The position numbers and the translations under genes were made by a program. A model generated the notes under the pieces. It had not been told where the DNA came from, did no database searches, and saw only the letters and a program-made list of their open reading frames with translations. This document shows, one piece after another, positions 6,648-51,022 of a stretch of DNA of 64,000 nt. How positions within the stretch are numbered: the stretch's first letter is position 1; every line of letters starts with the position of its first letter. The stretch is from Anastrepha obliqua. Taxonomy: Eukaryota > Arthropoda > Insecta > Diptera > Tephritidae. The stretch is taken from the NCBI RefSeq assembly GCF_027943255.1, contig NC_072897.1:45854044-45918043 (forward strand). Direction: 5' to 3'.

Positions 6648-6690
6648 TAATAATAATAATAATAATAATTTATCCTAGTAGGTGGTCCAG

Positions 6691-8421
6691 AAAATTCGGC
6701 GGCTTACAGAAGGTTTCAAGACCGGGGCGTTTTCCTGTAAGAACAAAGACGGCGAACTGGTGACTGACGTACAGAGCAATCTTAAATTATGGAGGGAACA
6801 CTTCTCGAACCTATTAAACAGTGACAGCTGCGCATGTCACAGAGAAAGTGAAGATCCCGATACCCCAATCGTTGACGACGGAATTGTCGTTCCGCTACCC
6901 GATCATGACGAGGTGAGAATAGCGATAACGCGGCTAAAGAACAACAAAGCCGCGGGCGCCGACGGACTGCCGGCTGAGCTATTCAAACATGGCGGTGAGG
7001 AGCTGGTAAGGTGCATGCATCAGCTCCTATGCAGAATATGGTCGGATGAAAGCATGCCTGCCGATTGGAATTTAAGTGTGCTCTGCCCAATCCATAAGAA
7101 GGGTGATCCTGCAATTTGTGCCAATTACCGCGGGATTAGTCTTCTAAATATCGCCTATAAGGTTCTAGCGAGCGTATTGTGTGAAAGGCTGAAGCCCACC
7201 GTCAACCAACTGATTGGACCTTATCAGTGTGGCTTCAGACCTGGAAAGTCCACCATCGACCAAATATTCTCAATACGCCAAATCTTGGAAAAGACCCATG
7301 AAAGGAGAATCGACACACACCATCTTTTCGTCGACTTCAAAGCTGCATTCGACAGTACGGAAAGGAGTTACCTGTATGCCGCGATGTCTGAATTTGGTAT
7401 CCCCGCAAAACTAATACGGCTATGCAAGATGACGTTGCTCAACACCAGCAGCGCCGTCAGAATTGGGAAGGACCTCTCCGAGCCGTTTGATACCAAACGA
7501 GGTTTCAGACAGGGTGACTCGCTGTCGTGTGACTTCTTTAACCTGATGTTGGAGAGCATTGTACGAGCCGCAGAACTTAATCGCTCAGGCACAATATTTT
7601 ATAAGAGCGTACAATTATTGGCGTATGCCGATGATATTGACATCATTGGCCTTAACAACCGCGCTGTTAGTTCTGCCTTCTCCAAACTGGATAAAGAGGC
7701 AAAGCGAATGGGTTTGGTGGTGAACGAGGGCAAAACGAAGTACCTCCTGTCTTCAAACAAACAGTCGGCGCACTCGCGTATCGGCACCCACGTCACTGTT
7801 GACAGTTATAATTTTGAGGTTGTAAAGGACTTCGTATACTTAGGAACCAGCATTAACACCGATAACAATGTCAGCCTTGAAATCCAACGTAGAATCTCTC
7901 TTGCCAACAAGTGCTACTTTGGACTAAGTAGGCAACTGAGCAGTAAAGTTCTCTCTCGACGAACAAAACTAACACTCTACAAGACTCTCATCATGCCCGT
8001 CCTAACGTATGGCGCAGAAGCTTGGACGATGACAACATCCGATGAAGCGACGCTTGGAGTGTTCGAGAGAAAGATTCTGCGGAAGATTTTTGGACCTTTG
8101 CACGTTGGCAACGGCGAATATCGCAGACGATGGAACGATGAGCTGTATGAGCTTTACGACGACATAGACATAGCGCAGCGAATAAAGATCCAGCGGCTAC
8201 GTTGGCTGGGTCATGTCGTCCGAATGGATACAAACGCTCCGGCTTTGAAAGTATTCGATGCGGTACCAGCTGGTGGTAGCAGAGGAAGAGGGCGGCCTCC
8301 TCTGCGTTGGAAAGATCAGGTGGAGAAGGACTTGGCTTCACTTGGTGTGTCCAACTGGCGCCGGTTAGCACGAGAAAGAAACGACTGGCGCGCTTTGTTA
8401 AACTCGGCCAAAATCGCGTAA
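6691..8421 (+). pseudogene. RTE-like reverse transcriptase, open but 5' truncated
   Basis: An uninterrupted frame of about 576 residues. It has the RT fingers (NNKAAGADGLPAELFKHGGE, SVLCPIHKKGD, NYRGISLLNIAYKVLA), the catalytic motif FVDFKAAFDS (about 7327-7356), FRQGDSLSC, and the YADD box near 7624. The C-terminal region has LTYGAEAWTM, IQRLRWLGHVVRM and GRGRPPLRWKDQVEKDL, conserved in this group. It would copy the element RNA at a nicked chromosomal site, but the apurinic endonuclease domain is absent. The first ATG at 6682 belongs to the flanking target (MVQ comes from the duplicated ggtggtccag), so it is not a natural start. The lack of stops suggests a recent insertion. Confidence 0.85.
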
Positions 8422-8561: not shown

Positions 8562-11500
8562 TCAGGTTCTAGTTTGCCTAGTTGTTCTCTGCCTTTGGAA
8601 AGGAGTTGGTTGAAAGCCATGTTCTTCCAACAATTTTTCTGCTATACGTATAAACCTTAGTATATCTGTGATAGGAGCTTTCTTTATTTCTTCCGGATCC
8701 AGTTGATCACGGTGGAAAATTTGCATTCTGGTTCTAGCCAGTGCAACGCACTCGCACAATAAGTGCTCCGTTGTTTCATCATCTTCAAAACAGAGTCTAC
8801 ACTCAGTATCCCTGAGGAGTTGAATTCTGTTAAGATGATAGTTTAGATAGTAGTGGCCCGTAAGAAAGCATACTATTTTCCTGATATCTACTTTCCGTAA
8901 GTTAATCAGTTCCTTTTTGTAGGTAAAAGGTCTAACCAACCTCTTGGCTTGACGAAGTTTCAGATTATCTTCCCAGTAAGCTATTCTGAGAGTATGTTCC
9001 CATTGGTCTACCCTGGATTTAGCTTCCGCCCAGTTGATACCACAATATGGTTCTGGTCCTATAAGGTCTGATGTCGATCCAGCCCTTGCCAGTTCATCAG
9101 CAATTTCGTTACCCTCGATTCCAGAGTGACCTGGAACCCAGCAAAGTACAACCGTATTTTTTGTACATAATTTTTGAAGATTGTTTACACATTCTTCCAC
9201 TAGTCTCGACTCCAAAGAATGAGACATTAGTGCTTTCAGTGCCGCTTGGCTGTCCGAATATATAGTTATGTGGGCCCCTTTGATACCCCTTTTTAGATTT
9301 GTCAGTGCACAGATCGAAATCGCTTGGATTTCGGCCTGGAAGACACTGGGCCATTTGCCCATGGGTTCTGAAATTTTTGTGTTGGGTCCAAAGATCCCGG
9401 CACCAACTCCAGTATTTGTTTTTGAACCATCAGTGAACCATATTAGACTTTTTGGGTTAACCCAAGGTCCTCAAATTTCCCATTCATCACGGTCTGAGAT
9501 AATTATCTCATAATTTCTATTGAAGACCCGTTTCGGAATCATGTAGTCTGTTACTGAACAGCTAATATCCCTATCCGGTATTTTTCTTAGAATACTCATA
9601 TGACCAAAGTCACTGTATTCCTTATTTGACAAGATTTGCATTTTTAGTGCATTTCTAGCTGCACATTTCCATATGAATATATGCAGTGGGGATAATCCTA
9701 CTATCGCTTCAATTGCAGTTGTGGGACAACTTCGCATGGCACCTGTTATAGACAAACAGGCCTGCCTTTGAAGACTTGCCAGTAATTTCTTGGCTGTTTC
9801 TTGTGTGGTTTTGGGCCACCAAACAAGGGACGCATAGGTAATGATTGGTCGAATCATCATTGTATACATCCAATGAATAATTTTGGAGTCAATACCCCAT
9901 GTTCTCCCCAGGAGACTGCGACATGCCCACATGGCTCTGGTGGCTTTATCTATCACCGATTTAAGGTGAGAGTTCCAATTTAATCTTTTATCCAGAACAA
10001 CTCCTAAATATTTGACCTCATTGGAATAGTTTATATTTGTTCCTTCGACAGTAATTGAACCAAGGTCCAACTTATATCTGTTTGTGAAAGGTACAATAAT
10101 AGTCTTGCTGGGATTTATAGAAAGTCCTTCTGCACGACACCAGTTTAGAATGAAATTTAATGTTTGATTCATAATGCTGGATATCGTTCTGTCTAATTTG
10201 CCAGGAATAATCACTGCAATATCGTCAGCATAGCCAATTACCTCCAAGCCTAACTCACTTAGTTTGACTAGGAGGTCGTCAAAAACCAGGGTCCATAATA
10301 AAGGTGACAAAACACCACCTTGGGGGCATCCTTTTAATGCTTTGACTGAGACTGATACATCTCCTAGAGATGAGCTGATTTCTCTGCTTTCCAGCATTGC
10401 CTTTACCCACCCTATGGTCAGCTTGTCAATGTTTTTATTTTGTAATGCTCTATCAATCGAGCGATAATCTGTATTATCAAATGCACCCTCGATATCTAAA
10501 AATGCGCATAAGGCGATTTCCTTAGATAAATGAGCTTTCTCTATCTTTGATACGAGAAAGTGAAGAGCTCTTTCTGTAGATTTCCCTTTATTATATGCGT
10601 ATTGCGATTTATGCAAAGGTGTGTTCTTTTCTATATTTTCTCTAATGTGAAGATCCACCAATCTTTCCATTGTTTTTAGGAGAAACGAAGTTAAACTAAT
10701 AGGTCTGTATGACTTTGTAAGTTCACTGGACCTCTTGCCCGTTTTTGGAATAAATATCACGTTGACCTTACGCCAAACGTTTGGTATGTATTCCATACTA
10801 AAGCTGTTTCTAAAAATGGCAACAAGTGGTTTTATTTGTGTTTCTATCCCTCGTAAGAGGAGGGCTGGAAAAATACCGTCTACCCCTGGTGCTTTAAATG
10901 ATTGGAAGGACCCAACGGCCCATCGTACTTTGTTTGGGGTAAAGATACGTCCTGACAGACTCCAGGATTTTTTGTTAGCCACGACCCCTTGGTCTGGTGT
11001 TAACTGATCATCCCTCACTGTCGATGACGTATCTATAGATCCCGGGAAGTGTACTTGAAGCATATATTCCAAAGTATCTTTCCGATTTTTTGTATACGAC
11101 CCATCTGGTCTTTTTAAAGTTGTAACACCGTTTGAGTGTTCCTTGCACAAAGCTTTAAGGAGCCTGGCGCCCTCTGGCGCCTCGATAATACTTTCACAGT
11201 ATCTTCTCCATGACTCGCGTTTAGACTTTCTCAATTCTTTGTTGTAAATTGTTAGAGCAACCCTGTAGTCGTCCCATACCTTTGTATGTTTACAACGATT
11301 GAAAAGTTGTCTTGTTTCTTTACGCATTTTGGCAAGCTTATCATTCCACCATGGGACCTTTCTAGTCACATTACGTGTTTTGACTACGTTGCTTTCGTGG
11401 TATGCTGAAATTATTGTATCCCTTAGTTGAAACGCTGCCTCATCTAGTTCACCAACAGAACTTATGTTGATAGGCAGTGAATCAACCTTTGATTCTAGTA

Positions 11501-12239
11501 ATTCCTGATATCGTTTCCAATTTGTTCTTTTAGGATCGAAGACCTCATTTCTGAGATCACTTCTGCCTGGTAGATCAAACCTTATGTGTAGATGGTCTGA
11601 CAAAGAGGCTTCATCAGACACATGCCAATTTCTCACAAAGTTAGCAATGTATGGGCTTGTTAGAGTAAGGTCTAGTACCTCCTCTCTAATAGCGTTAATA
11701 AACGTAGGTTTAGTACCTTTATTACTAATGTTTACGTTTTTGCTTAACAGATAATTTAAGAGAGACTCACCTCTATTGTTGACATCCGAGCTGCCCCAGA
11801 TACAGTGATGCGCGTTTGCATCGCATCCGATCACGAACTGTATGTTCCGTGAGTGACAGTGCTCAATAAGCGCCTGCACCTCTACAGGAAGTATATCGTT
11901 GGAATCGCCCGGGAAGTAGGCAGACGCACAAACAATTTCCTGTGTCCCCTTTTCCGTTGCGATTTCTATTTGGATAGCTGCCAGATCCTGGCTGGCAAAC
12001 TCTGAAAGTGGAAAGTAGTTAGTGTTATTGTCTACCATTATCGCAGCCCTTGGACGCGGGCAGTGATAATAAACCAACTTACATTCCTTGCTAGATAGTC
12101 CTTTAACTTGACCACCAAATACCCACGGCTCTTGTAGTAGAGCTATGGATATTTTTTCCTCGGCGAATCTCTTGCACATGGTGGCTGATGCTCCTATGGC
12201 ATGGTGCAAGTTCGCCTGTAGCACCTTCAATGTGCTCAT
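8562..12239 (-). pseudogene. LOA-like ORF2: endonuclease, reverse transcriptase, RNase H; one stop
   Basis: A single frame of 1225 codons interrupted only by TGA at 9471-9473 (codon 923). The start ATG (12237-12239) overlaps the ORF1 stop as ATGA. Residues 1-220 are an apurinic-type endonuclease (LLQEPWVFGG, CDANAHHCIWGSSD, SDHLHIRF). RT motifs follow: VIFIPKTGKR, YRPISLTSFLLKTMERL, AFLDIEGAFD, PQGGVLSPLLW and GYADDIAVI. After the stop the RNase H domain has FTDGSKTNTG, YSDSQAA and GHSGIEGNEIADELA, then a Cys-rich segment CRLC...EHLLCEC. The protein would nick DNA, copy the element RNA and remove RNA. The one stop falls just before RNase H, so a 922-residue endonuclease-RT could still be made. 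Confidence 0.9.
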
Positions 12240-12733
12240 TTTTGGCTATTTTCTGCCACAAGGTGCTGTAGCTTTGCGCCCCGAGGTCCCTTGTTTTTGT
12301 GGTCCTTATGACCCCCCACCGGCCGTGGTTTTGCTTGCTTTGGCACCTGTGTGTGCCGAGCTGCAGCGGTAGCCTTTTTCACGACCTTTATCGCGTTTTG
12401 TCGCTCTAACGCCGCTTTGCTTGTTGAGGGTTTCTCCACCTCTTTGGGTGCCGTTTCATCAGTATGCCCAACAGCACTACTTTTGGTTGTTGCGGCAGGT
12501 ACTTCTTGCGCGCCCAGTGGCTCTGCTGTACCAACGCTTTCCTCTGCCTTTTCCCCCGCTTTGTTGTTTTTGAGGATAAGGCGCACATGGCCGAAGCGAT
12601 ATGCAATTTTGCCTTTCAGCTCTGTTAGCCTACTCAGCGATTCGTCGTCAACCGCCATGACAAGGTGAAGTAAGGCACCTTCGGTCGACCTTTGAATCAC
12701 TTTCCAGTGTTTTGCTGCTAGATTGTTCTGGAC
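12236..12733 (-). pseudogene. LOA-like ORF1, C-terminal part
   Basis: The frame running to the stop at 12236-12238 begins, after truncation at 12733, with the sequence around HWKVIQRSTEGALLHLVMAV. This resembles the DUF4780-like domain found in ORF1 of related elements (WKV..RST...HLVM.VD..SL). It is followed by a low-complexity Ala/Lys/Pro-rich tail (residues about 45-154 from the Met at 12700). No zinc knuckle is seen. ORF1 proteins bind the element RNA. The 5' portion is lost and the true start is outside the copy. The 1-base-offset stop/start overlap with ORF2 suggests termination-reinitiation. Confidence 0.7.
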
Positions 12734-46802: not shown

Positions 46803-48089
46803 ATAGGACTATGAATAAGTTCCTTGCGGTTTTACAACAGATGGCATAACTTGATTATTATTCCATCGATCCACATTTCCAAACATTCATTGGAGAGCTA
46901 CTGTCGTAAGGCACAAACGTCAGTATAAGTTTTTTATTTGAAGCGTAAACAACAATATTTTTACCACACTTGAAAATGTCGAATTTCGTGCCAAATAATG
47001 TGTTTTTGCGGGGAATTCTTCTTCATTATTTTAATATGAAGAAAAAAGCAGCCGAAAGTCATCGTATCTTGGTGGAAGTTTATGGTGAGCATGCTCTAGC
47101 TGAGCGAACGTGCCAGAAGTGGTTTGCACGCTTTAAAAGTGGTGATTTTGGCTTGGAAGACGAAGAACGCGAGGGTGCGCCGCCAAAGTTCATGGATACC
47201 GAATTGGAGGAATTGCTCGATCAAGATCCGGCTCAAACGCAAGAAGAGGTTGCAAAAACTTTGGGAGTTGATCAATCAACCATTTCCAAACGTTTAAAAG
47301 CCATGGGAATGATCCGAAAGGTAGGCCATTGGGTGCCGTATGAATTGAAGCCAAGAGACGTTGAACGCCGTTTTATAGCATGCGAACAACTGCTTCAACG
47401 GCACAAAAGAAAGGGTTTTTTGCATCGAATTGTGACTGGCGATGAAAAGTGGGTCCATTACGACAATCCAAAACGTCGGGCAACGTATGGATACCCTGGG
47501 CATGCTTCAACATCGACGTCGGCGCAGAATATTCATGGCCTGAAGGTTATGCTGTGTATCTGGTGGGACCAGCTGGGTGTTGTGTATTATGAGCTACTGA
47601 AACCGAATGAAACGATTACGGGGGATGTCTACCGACGACAATTGATGCGTTTGAGCCGAGCACTGCGAGAAAAACGGCCGCAATACGCCGATAGACACGA
47701 CAAAGTTATTTTGCAACATGACCATGCTCGGCCACATGTTGCACAAGTGGTCAAAACATACTTAGAAACGCTCAAATGGGATGTCCTACCCCACCCGCCG
47801 TATAGTCCAGACCTTGCGCCATCCGATTACTATCTCTTCCGATCGATGCAACATGGCCTGGCTGACCAGCACTTCCGTAATTACGATGAAGTCAAAAAAT
47901 GGATCGATTCGTGGATTGCGGCAAAACCGACCGAATTTTTCACAAAGGGAATCCGTGAATTGCCAGAAAGATGGGAAAAAGTAGTAGTAAGCGATGGACA
48001 ATACTTTGAATATTAAATTTGTAACCATTTTACGTCAATAAAGTTTCAAATTTCGAAAAAAAACCGCACGAACTTAACCATAGTCCTAT
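46803..48089 (+). mobile_element. Mos1-type mariner, complete with intact ends
   Basis: A 1287-bp element (Mos1 itself is 1286 bp) flanked by TA (46801-46802 and 48090-48091). Terminal inverted repeats of about 28 bp start ATAGGACTATG at both ends and read on to tgcggtttt with few differences. It contains one open transposase gene and no visible insertion or deletion. Confidence 0.95.
46976..48016 (+). CDS. mariner transposase, mauritiana (Mos1) type, apparently intact
   Basis: 346 residues; Mos1 has 345. I chose the ATG at 46976 (MSNFVPNN) because it aligns with the Mos1 start; the in-frame TTG at 46970 is not needed. The paired HTH DNA-binding region is residues 1-112 (CQKWFARFKSGDFGLED at about 46-62). 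A WVPYEL linker motif sits at 119-124 (WVPHEL in most mariners). The DDD catalytic residues are D156 (VTGDEKW), D249 (LQHDHARPH) and D284 (SPDLAPSDYYLF), at the Mos1 positions. H250 replaces the usual Asn. There are no stops or shifts. It would bind the terminal repeats and cut and paste the element at TA. It may be active or recently active. Confidence 0.93.
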   Translation: MSNFVPNNVFLRGILLHYFNMKKKAAESHRILVEVYGEHALAERTCQKWFARFKSGDFGLEDEEREGAPPKFMDTELEELLDQDPAQTQEEVAKTLGVDQSTISKRLKAMGMIRKVGHWVPYELKPRDVERRFIACEQLLQRHKRKGFLHRIVTGDEKWVHYDNPKRRATYGYPGHASTSTSAQNIHGLKVMLCIWWDQLGVVYYELLKPNETITGDVYRRQLMRLSRALREKRPQYADRHDKVILQHDHARPHVAQVVKTYLETLKWDVLPHPPYSPDLAPSDYYLFRSMQHGLADQHFRNYDEVKKWIDSWIAAKPTEFFTKGIRELPERWEKVVVSDGQYFEY

Positions 48090-48091
48090 TA

Positions 48092-48420
48092 ATTTGTACC
48101 GCTAGCTCCCATCTACACACGCAATATTTTGCAAATAAAAACCCAATTGAAATTCTTTGCAATGCAACAGAAACCAACGTAAAAGTCATTTTCAACTTTC
48201 TAGAACATGTGAACATGGGGCATCTAATTTAAGATATTGTAATATAATATATGTTTAAGTATAGTAAGTAAATAAGTGTAAGTATATAATATCCAATAAG
48301 TAATACTAATTATTTCACCTAATGTCTTAGACGATAGCCCTGGTAGCTAGTGCTGTAAACATATTAATTTATAATTTTAATATAATAATATTAATAACAC
48401 ATCCACTACAACAAGGAAAA
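48092..48420 (+). other. Possible Jockey-type 3' tail
   Basis: The block tagacgatagccctggtagc (about 48327) followed by an AATATAATAATATTAATAA tail resembles the 3' end of the Jockey-like fragment at 57650 (ctagccgatagccttggtag). Upstream coding sequence for this element was not recognised. Confidence 0.4.
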
Positions 48421-48680
48421 CATGGCGTTCGTACAACATCCTGAGGACGAGTTACCTGCTAGGATGCTCTCGCCCATGCATCTCACTTATCACTGCATTC
48501 ATGGGGATCATGTAACCAAACTCAACCTTCCTTTCAATCCCATCTGCAGAAGTTGTCAGGCGGAGGAGGTGAAAGAACGTCTTTTCCGCTATTTATGCGA
48601 ATGTCCAGGTTTAGCCAGAACAAGACATCGCTCTCTTGGTAAAACTTTTCTGCAACAAATTAAATTAAAAAACACATGAC
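48421..48680 (+). pseudogene. Non-LTR ORF2 C-terminal Cys-rich segment
   Basis: A frame of 85 residues whose second half, PICRSCQAEEVKERLFRYLC then ECPGLARTRHRSLG, matches the C-x2-C...H/C...C motif found after RNase H in LOA- and R1-like ORF2 proteins (compare CRLCFEDDETTEHLLCEC at 8780-8830). The upstream RT and RNase H are absent. It is a 3' fragment of another element, on the plus strand. Confidence 0.7.
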
Positions 48681-48846
48681 ATCACATGAGAACAGTGGTA
48701 ATAAAACGGCACTAGTCGCTAATTAAGATTATATTAGCAGATATACTCAACCACTTCAACCACAACAACATATATTCTTGTCTTCAAAGAAAGTCAAGAG
48801 CTTCCGCGAAAGGTTGTAAATACATATTATATAATATATATATATA

Positions 48847-50704
48847 TTAAGGTGTCCGTTATTTACCAATTTGATTATTTTTCTTGCGACGCCCCCTAAA
48901 CTTTTAGTTTTCCGTCTAAAAAAAATTATCGGAACAAAATCAGTTCTTAATATTCAGAATAAACCTTGCCCCAAACACGATATATTTCCCATTTACATAA
49001 CATGGGATTTCGCTACTTTTTGGAATAAACTTTTTTTTCTCTAGTATGCTAATTTACAGCTATAAAAAACACATATTCTGATGGCAATTTTTACTCTCTG
49101 CAAAAAATATCTCTTATAATTTTTCGATAAATTGACTCCTTTAAAAGTTAATCGAAGTTAAAGTTGAACTGTGTGTAAATTTCAGACTTTCACTTTTGCA
49201 GCAAAATTATTTATAATTGTTGTAGTAAACTTCTCACGTTTATATAAAAAAATAATCAATGGATCAGAGCCAAGTAAAAATTATTCAAACATTTTTCCAT
49301 TTACAGAATCTAATCAACTAATATATCTGAAAAAATTCATCAATTTTTGTCCTTTGCTATGAAATGTTTTTTTTTTTTCAATTATTTTTACAAGCATTTC
49401 TGCCAACATAGGTATGGTTTGGTTTTTTCTTGCACATTAAGGTGTCCGTCATTTACCAATTTGATTATTTTTCTTGCGACGCTCCCAAAGTCAATGGCCT
49501 TCTATTGATAAAAACAACTATAAATCTATACAAAAAAAATAAATTGAAAAAAGTCTTAAAAGAAAAAATACCAGAAATAAATTCGAAAATTGATGAATAC
49601 TTGAATACTACGCTACCTCGTGATGATTATCGAGAATTATTAGAGCTAAGTAAAATATTTTTAGGCACAATGAATGTCAAAGAAATCAAATTTTATAAAC
49701 CGGGGGCATGCCATCACGCTGTCCGATGCAGTTTTCAGAAAATTTCGGAATCATCTAAGGTACTTAAGTCCTGAAACAGGGGCCCTAGCATTTTTCGATA
49801 AAAGTTTATCTTATAGTTTAAAGCAAAAAATGGTAGAAGCATTAAAATTGAGCGATAACGATCAGTTTGATGCTCCTAAACGTTTCATATTTAATTCCGA
49901 TGATTTCAAATGGTTCATAAATAAAGACATTGATTACTTTATAAACGAAAATTCTTTAAAACTTTTTGAAAGATTTGATATTGATACCAGCTTTCTTCAA
50001 TTAGACAGCAGTAAATGGGTAGAAGATCCTGGATATTTGAGAGGTTTATAAATTGTAAGAAATTTACGATTAGTCAATGACAATGCAGAAAGAGCTGTAA
50101 AATTGTCAGAAGAATATGTTAACGTTTTAGCAAGAAGTGAAGATGACAAACAATATGTAATCCAGATTGTAAGCGAGTAGAAAAAAAAATTTAACTAAAA
50201 CATGTTTACTAGAATAAATCGTGGATTCTTAGGTGGTATAAATTTGATTCGACTTATGGATTTTTTCATCTTTCATCTTCATACCATAGAAATTGATCAT
50301 TTTTTTATATAAACGTCAGAATTTTGCTATAACAGTAATAACTTTGCTGCAAAAGTGAAAAAGTCTGAAATTTACACACAGTTCAACTTTAACTTCGATT
50401 AACTTTTAAAGGAGTCAATTTATCGAAAAATTATAAGAGATCTTTTTTGTAGAGAGTTAAAATTGGCATCAGAATATGTATTTTTCATAGCTGTAAATTA
50501 GCATACTAGAGAAAAAAAAGTTTATTCCAAAAAGTAGCAAAATCCCATGTTATATAAATGGGAAATATATCGTGTTTGGGGCAAGGTTTATTCTGAATAT
50601 TAAGAGCTGATTTTGATCTGATAATTTTTCTTAGACGGAAAACTAAAAGTATAGGGGGCGTCGCAAGAAAAATAATCAAATTGGTAAATAACGGACACCC
50701 TAAT
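48847..50704 (+). mobile_element. Unclassified TTAA element with 364-bp inverted repeats
   Basis: Inverted repeats 48851-49214 and 50337-50700 are nearly identical and begin GGTGTCCGTTATTTACC. Outside are TTAA (48847-48850) and CTAA (50701-50704 region), fitting a TTAA target with one change. A third copy of the first 48 bases of the terminus, also preceded by TTAA, lies inside at 49437-49487, just before the coding remnant. The element sits in the TA-rich tail of a SINE. TTAA targets are known for piggyBac and Kolobok elements, but the coding part matches neither as far as I can tell. Confidence 0.8.
49478..50182 (+). pseudogene. Unrecognised transposon protein remnant
   Basis: First frame: EKIPEINSKIDEYLNTTLPR, YRELLELSKIFLGTMNVKEI, KFYKPGACHHA. 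After a shift and probably an internal deletion near 49710: FRKFRNHLRYLSPETGALAF, FDKSLSYSLKQKMVEALKLS, KWFINKDIDYFINENSLKLF, then past one stop (50049-50051) VRNLRLVNDNAERAVKLSEE. The KPGA.HHA and LSPE...FFD motifs look like parts of a conserved family that recurs in arthropod genomes (from memory), but I cannot name it and see no classical DDE box. Its position inside the long inverted repeats suggests it belongs to the element's transposase. Confidence 0.6.
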
Positions 50705-51022
50705 ATATATATATAATTGGCGCGTACACCCTTTTTGGGTGTTTGGCCGAGCTCCTCCTCCTATTTGTGGTGTGCGTCTTGATGTTGTTCCACAAATGGA
50801 GGGACCTACTGTTTCAAGCCGACTCCGAACGGCAGATTTTTTTATGAGGAGCTTTTTCATAGCAGAAATACACTCGGAGGTTTGCCATTGCCTGCCGAGG
50901 GGCGACCGCTATTAGAAAAATATTTTTTATTAACTTTGGTTTCACCGAGATTCGAACCAACGTTCTCTCTGTGAATTCCGAATGGTAATCACGCACCAAC
51001 CCATTCGGCTACGGCGGCCGCC
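50705..51022 (-). mobile_element. tRNA-derived SINE, copy 2 (target of the TTAA element)
   Basis: Full SINE on the minus strand: head ccgccgtagccgaatgggtt (51018-50999 side), body, and a TA-rich tail at 50702-50716. The 11-bp duplication ggttgtaaata occurs at 51023-51033 and, on the far side of the TTAA element, at 48812-48822. The tail therefore originally continued to about 48823 and was later split by the TTAA element. Confidence 0.9.

Follow-up and report, generated by a model that had tools for sequence, protein, structure and literature searches.

The 64,000-nucleotide stretch of Anastrepha obliqua DNA analysed here (the window) carries, at 48848-50702, a 1855 bp element with long inverted arms, which we read with high confidence as a dead copy, with internal deletion, of a hAT-type cut-and-paste DNA transposon, most likely of the hATm lineage. 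Its behaviour is hAT-like, with an eight-base duplication on landing and not TTAA, and it is therefore taken as an ordinary jumping gene copy. The closer placement is held more loosely: the element probably works in the hAT manner and belongs to hATm or near it, and it is not filed as proven hATm because the hAT dimerisation domain PF05699 is reported in hATm-6 (PMC6004678) and was not found in the present transposases. An earlier note on this DNA had described an internally deleted DNA transposon copy, which holds, related deleted copies being present as well, and had taken it for a TTAA element of a possibly undescribed family, which does not.

Element boundaries and flanking duplications

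The left end reads ATATATATAT then TAAGGTGTCCG, and the right end CGGACACCCTA then ATATATATAT; the bounds of the element follow from these end sequences.

48848..50702, + strand: whole element, 1855 bp, non-autonomous, TAAGGTGTCCG...CGGACACCCTA (ends and relatives)
48840..48847, no strand: left 8 bp flank ATATATAT, putative target site duplication (flank comparison)
50703..50710, no strand: right 8 bp flank ATATATAT, putative target site duplication (flank comparison)
48848..49214, + strand: outer left arm (repeat finder, pairwise alignment)
50337..50702, - strand: right arm, the left arm inverted, 94.8% identical over the first 410 bp compared

The two near-identical inverted repeats noted earlier were recovered, 48847-49214 and 50337-50703 sharing 95.4% identity over 367 aligned columns, and the repeat finder gave the pair as 356 nt at 96%, extending slightly into the AT-rich flank. 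Target sites and termini were compared across 13 elements, namely the ten of 16 long loci with recognisable end pairs together with L026, L046 and the window element; outside this count are L014, L015, L016, L017, L021 and L024, in which no matching end pair was recognised, L047, whose right end is lost, the array locus L045, whose flanks match at 5 of 8 positions by reading, and L001-L008, which give shorter pieces of families that the count includes. Ends of hAT elements begin with T or C followed by A and G. Here TAG begins 25 of the 26 ends, TAA begins the other, and TAG starts the element in the relatives of the window copy, whose duplication is 8 bp; exact 5'-TAGGGTG / CACCCTA-3' stands at 12/26 ends, the window's right end included, and the rest read TAGGGG, TAGAG, TAGAC, TAGCG or TAAGG.

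Flanks of 8 bp match exactly in 12 of the 13 elements (one of these being the window element, in an AT repeat) and at 7 of 8 positions in L026. Fully matching flanks of 3, 5, 7, 9 or 11 bp occur in 0/13, of 6, 10 or 12 bp in 1/13 each, of 2 bp in 9/13, and of 4 bp in 2/13 (L009 and the window element in its AT repeat, neither being TTAA). The duplications follow nTnnnnAn, the T (position 2) and the A (position 7) being present in 12/13; this is the target preference of Hermes (PMC10368747).

The TTAA-like flanks of the earlier note stand at the left end, which has TTAA, and fall at the right end, which reads CCCTAATATA. A TTAA-specific element (piggyBac, Kolobok or Sola3, the last of which targets TTAA) would suit that left end and the T that also precedes the inner terminus described below (ATTAAGG). 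We nevertheless consider such an element barely credible: besides the right end, the flanks of the 13 elements are 8 bp repeats, a TTAA duplication occurs in 0/13, most duplications (e.g. ATATGCAG, ATAAGCAG and ATGCCCAT) are incompatible with TTAA, and no piggyBac or THAP match was found with Pfam in 42 aligned members or six near-full-length proteins. For the relatives the flank comparison refutes the TTAA target site, and copies whose flanks lack TTAA duplications, which the earlier note had itself held to speak against its proposal, are what was found.

Relatives and the predicted transposase

The read-through remnant, used as a protein query, retrieved one relative, P0001 (2.0e-25), which has at least 100 matching stretches in the window's genome (its genome counts are lower bounds, 93 of 1168 first-look candidates having been scored). 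Because six loci (L001-L004, L006 and L008) are mutually 99.1-99.9% identical over about 3.1 kb, recent movement is suggested. A second search returned 481 proteins, the best 120 of which were listed; named sources among the matches listed are Anastrepha ludens, Daktulosphaira vitifoliae, Uroleucon formosanum, Aphis glycines and Temnothorax nylanderi, and these named relatives are all annotated as uncharacterized or hypothetical protein. One of them, P0022 (746 aa, A. ludens), resembles the L009 family as judged by eye. A virus origin was dropped, a scan of viral_contigs with A2 having matched patterns in 30 stretches with no relative confirmed.

The same genome also has intact relatives, whose product is a D-D-E transposase of ~746 aa. 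Across 48 aligned transposases the D, C, H, R and E are essentially invariant, and the conserved Trp position holds Phe in 13/48 and Leu in 1/48; Hermes has the D-D-E, the CxxH and a conserved Trp (W319), with residue roles as given in PMC4763223. The D, CxxH and E-R motifs correspond between these transposases and hAT, and hhalign places their D2 and CxxH columns against those of five canonical hATs that this genome also contains (L048-L052). The predicted fold is an RNase H domain split, like that of Hermes, by a large helical insertion, which agrees with the RNase H-like fold that the earlier note had proposed to look for. In a Foldseek comparison of this predicted fold with PDB, Hermes takes the ten best ranks, RAG appears among the rows at E 0.066 and weaker, and the structural alignment spans Hermes 135-609, nearly end to end, reaching residue 609 despite the missing PF05699 profile match. 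Among the Foldseek rows listed there is no chain of a P element, piggyBac or Transib, to which we attach no weight.

Pfam, run at E 0.1 on the 42 aligned members, gave nine scattered weak matches and no transposase family, the protein being too divergent for this library to recognise; this bears out the earlier note in so far as it could place the coding motifs in neither piggyBac nor Kolobok. NCBIfam gave nothing relevant. In the six near-full-length proteins, searched at E 10, no THAP domain was reported, and their N-terminal ~300 residues hold no recognised domain. The THAP result bears on a P-superfamily element like Galileo, with long inverted repeats, 7-8 bp duplications and a helical insertion in its D-D-E transposase. 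Galileo has long terminal inverted repeats (TIRs; PMC3688188), and the long arms and 8 bp duplications seen here are compatible with such an element, but with no THAP domain reported in the six proteins, no P-type protein among the ten best PDB ranks and ends beginning TAG, we think it very improbable.

Comparison with hATm and other hAT elements

In its fold, ends and duplications the element agrees with hAT transposons, a described kind, and among open PMC papers the closest printed description found is that of hATm (Zhang et al. 2018, PMC6004678). hATm elements have 8-9 bp duplications and ends 5'-TAGGGTG/CACCCTA-3', two members have TIRs of 417 and 575 bp, and more than 74 are in Repbase. 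Compared by description, the present elements fit well, sharing the 8 bp duplications, the long TIRs (230 bp in L009, ~365-410 bp in the window) and the insect hosts; exact TAGGGTG is confined to the 12 ends counted above, whereas the other ends deviate. Hermes (hAT, Ac group; 6dwz, 4d1q, 2bw3) differs in having a TIR of 17 bp (PMC10368747), far shorter than the arms here, in sharing 11-13% identity, and in that the present transposases have no recognised BED finger or PF05699.

Several results weigh against a hAT assignment. PF05699 was not found in the 42 members (E 0.1) or the six near-full-length proteins (E 10), yet is present in 5/5 of the canonical hATs of the same genome; a BED zinc finger was likewise not reported in the six proteins (E 10), and is found in 2/5 of the canonical hATs. 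An N-terminal BED finger is common, not universal, in hAT. Sequence profiles against PDB gave nothing related, Foldseek gave modest TM-scores (0.27-0.36 by query, 0.37-0.52 by target), and the hhalign probability is 52% over 94 columns, obtained without a negative control. The window's own 8 bp flanks are uninformative alone, because they sit inside an AT repeat where matches of other lengths also occur; the 13 elements represent about seven families and not 13 independent cases, and a deleted element within a tandem array on contig C8 has unmatched flanks, TTGCACAT against ATATACAT or ATATGCAT. Inverted repeats of hAT elements are generally 10-25 bp (PMC3942097), so the long arms are unusual, and in hATm-6 PF05699 lies at the C-terminus (PMC6004678).

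The lack of a PF05699 match and the ~300-residue N-terminal part with no recognised domain would also suit a separate D-D-E lineage, with a hAT-like fold and 8 bp stagger, standing outside hAT as defined by PF05699 and the BED finger. We give this little credence, as the structural match covers Hermes nearly end to end, the D, CxxH and E-R motifs correspond, and the ends and target pattern are hAT-like.

Coding remnant

The coding remnant reported between the arms is real: two parts in different frames match the same transposase, and both of the motifs singled out earlier are located in it, KPGA.HHA directly before the conserved R[W/F] motif and LSPE...FFD further along.

49577..49720, + strand: transposase remnant A (P0108 residues 452-506), ending at KPGA.HHA, immediately ahead of the R[W/F] motif (translated search)
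49719..49720, + strand: deletion junction, about 220 bp missing relative to L046 and the C8 array unit L045
49719..50177, + strand: transposase remnant B (P0001 residues 281-436), with LSPE...FFD and the catalytic-E motif NDNAERAV (translated search)

The match of remnant B extends to 50192 with two queries and contains one in-frame TAA (50049-50051). The presumed catalytic-E motif NDNAERAV is retained, and none of the catalytic aspartate motifs (HWDGK, FDTT) or CRHH lies in the remnant parts aligned to relatives, because the matches start at residue 452 at least of ~748. Since the gene parts for CxxH, R[W/F] and the two catalytic aspartates are gone, the window copy could move only with transposase from an intact copy.

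We infer, by analogy with Hermes, that such a transposase would pair the two TAGGG... ends and excise the element (in Hermes hairpins stay on the flanking DNA), and that reinsertion with an 8 bp stagger would yield 8 bp duplications that follow nTnnnnAn; the window copy would be mobilised in trans alone, by the intact copy's transposase acting on its ends.

A composite copy that has transposed

The earlier note overlooked an inner left terminus (TAAGG at 49438), 48846-48899 recurring at 49436-49489 with 94% identity over 54 nt.

49215..49437, + strand: stretch from the outer left arm to the inner terminus, also in L046, L047 and partly L026
49438..49489, + strand: second, inner left terminus (TAAGGTGTCCGTC...), common to L046 and the C8 array, with TTGCACAT directly before it at 49430-49437

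The window copy thus runs from outer left arm through ~220 bp to this second left terminus, beyond which lie the coding remnant and the right arm, and the TTGCACAT before the inner terminus fits nTnnnnAn. L046 has the same build (2047 bp) at a different place with exact ATGTATAT flanks, and with this 8 bp duplication of its own it follows that the composite has itself transposed. In L047 the outer left arm is present too, but the sequence continues past the point equivalent to 49438 without an inner terminus. In the simplest history, whose order we infer, one deleted copy would have inserted into another at TTGCACAT, the distal remainder would then have been lost, and the composite would later have moved by its outer ends; arm similarity cannot date the composite event, every combination of arms from different copies being 90-98% alike.

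We also considered that the long arms arose in the window copy alone, and dropped this because L026, L046 and L047 carry its outer left arm and L009 has long repeats. In L026 (G000:C6:54608342-54611671) the right arm equals the inverted left arm to about 520 bp, where other copies differ.

Tandem array on contig C8 and neighbouring elements

The closest relatives of the remnant form a tandem array at 5.187-5.818 Mb of contig C8, which holds 133 of the 150 matches scored among 480 candidates, every one on the + strand, at a median spacing of 3.0 kb (65/132 spacings 2.8-3.2 kb). The array (G000; L045, L027-L044) consists of head-to-tail ~3-kb units, each a hAT fragment, whose frame is open in several units to as much as 280-286 aa, plus a ~1.3-kb stretch; the first part of that stretch matches DUF4817 at 1.8e-11, and we read it as a putative mariner-like transposase. 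A bolder proposal, which we hold as unlikely, is that the 48 aligned transposases (Anastrepha, aphids, phylloxera, ant) would form a separate hAT-like insect lineage without recognisable PF05699 or BED finger, its long repeats bound by an undescribed helical N-terminal region of ~300 residues, invisible to Pfam yet common in insect genomes, and that the ~630-kb array of this fly would have grown from one deleted member after its fusion with a mariner-like element.

The window copy itself, a dead and deleted transposon, matters little. Its use lies in correcting a TTAA assignment to hAT-like 8 bp duplications, and in showing once more that Pfam misses a transposase group common in insects, whose members are deposited as 'uncharacterized protein'; the C8 array could aid the study of transposons turning into satellite DNA.

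Other transposon frames lie in the window. Just upstream of the element, 46949-48016 (+) is a 355-aa frame matching a Mos1-type mariner transposase (Transposase_1 4e-23, HTH_48 6e-19). At 48398-48679 (+) is a 93-aa frame that resembles by eye a cysteine-rich C-terminus of a non-LTR retrotransposon, with no Pfam match at E 0.01. Non-LTR retrotransposon frames occupy 6682-8421 (+) and 8562-12245 (-), with reverse transcriptase on both strands and, in the latter, endonuclease and RNase H as well.
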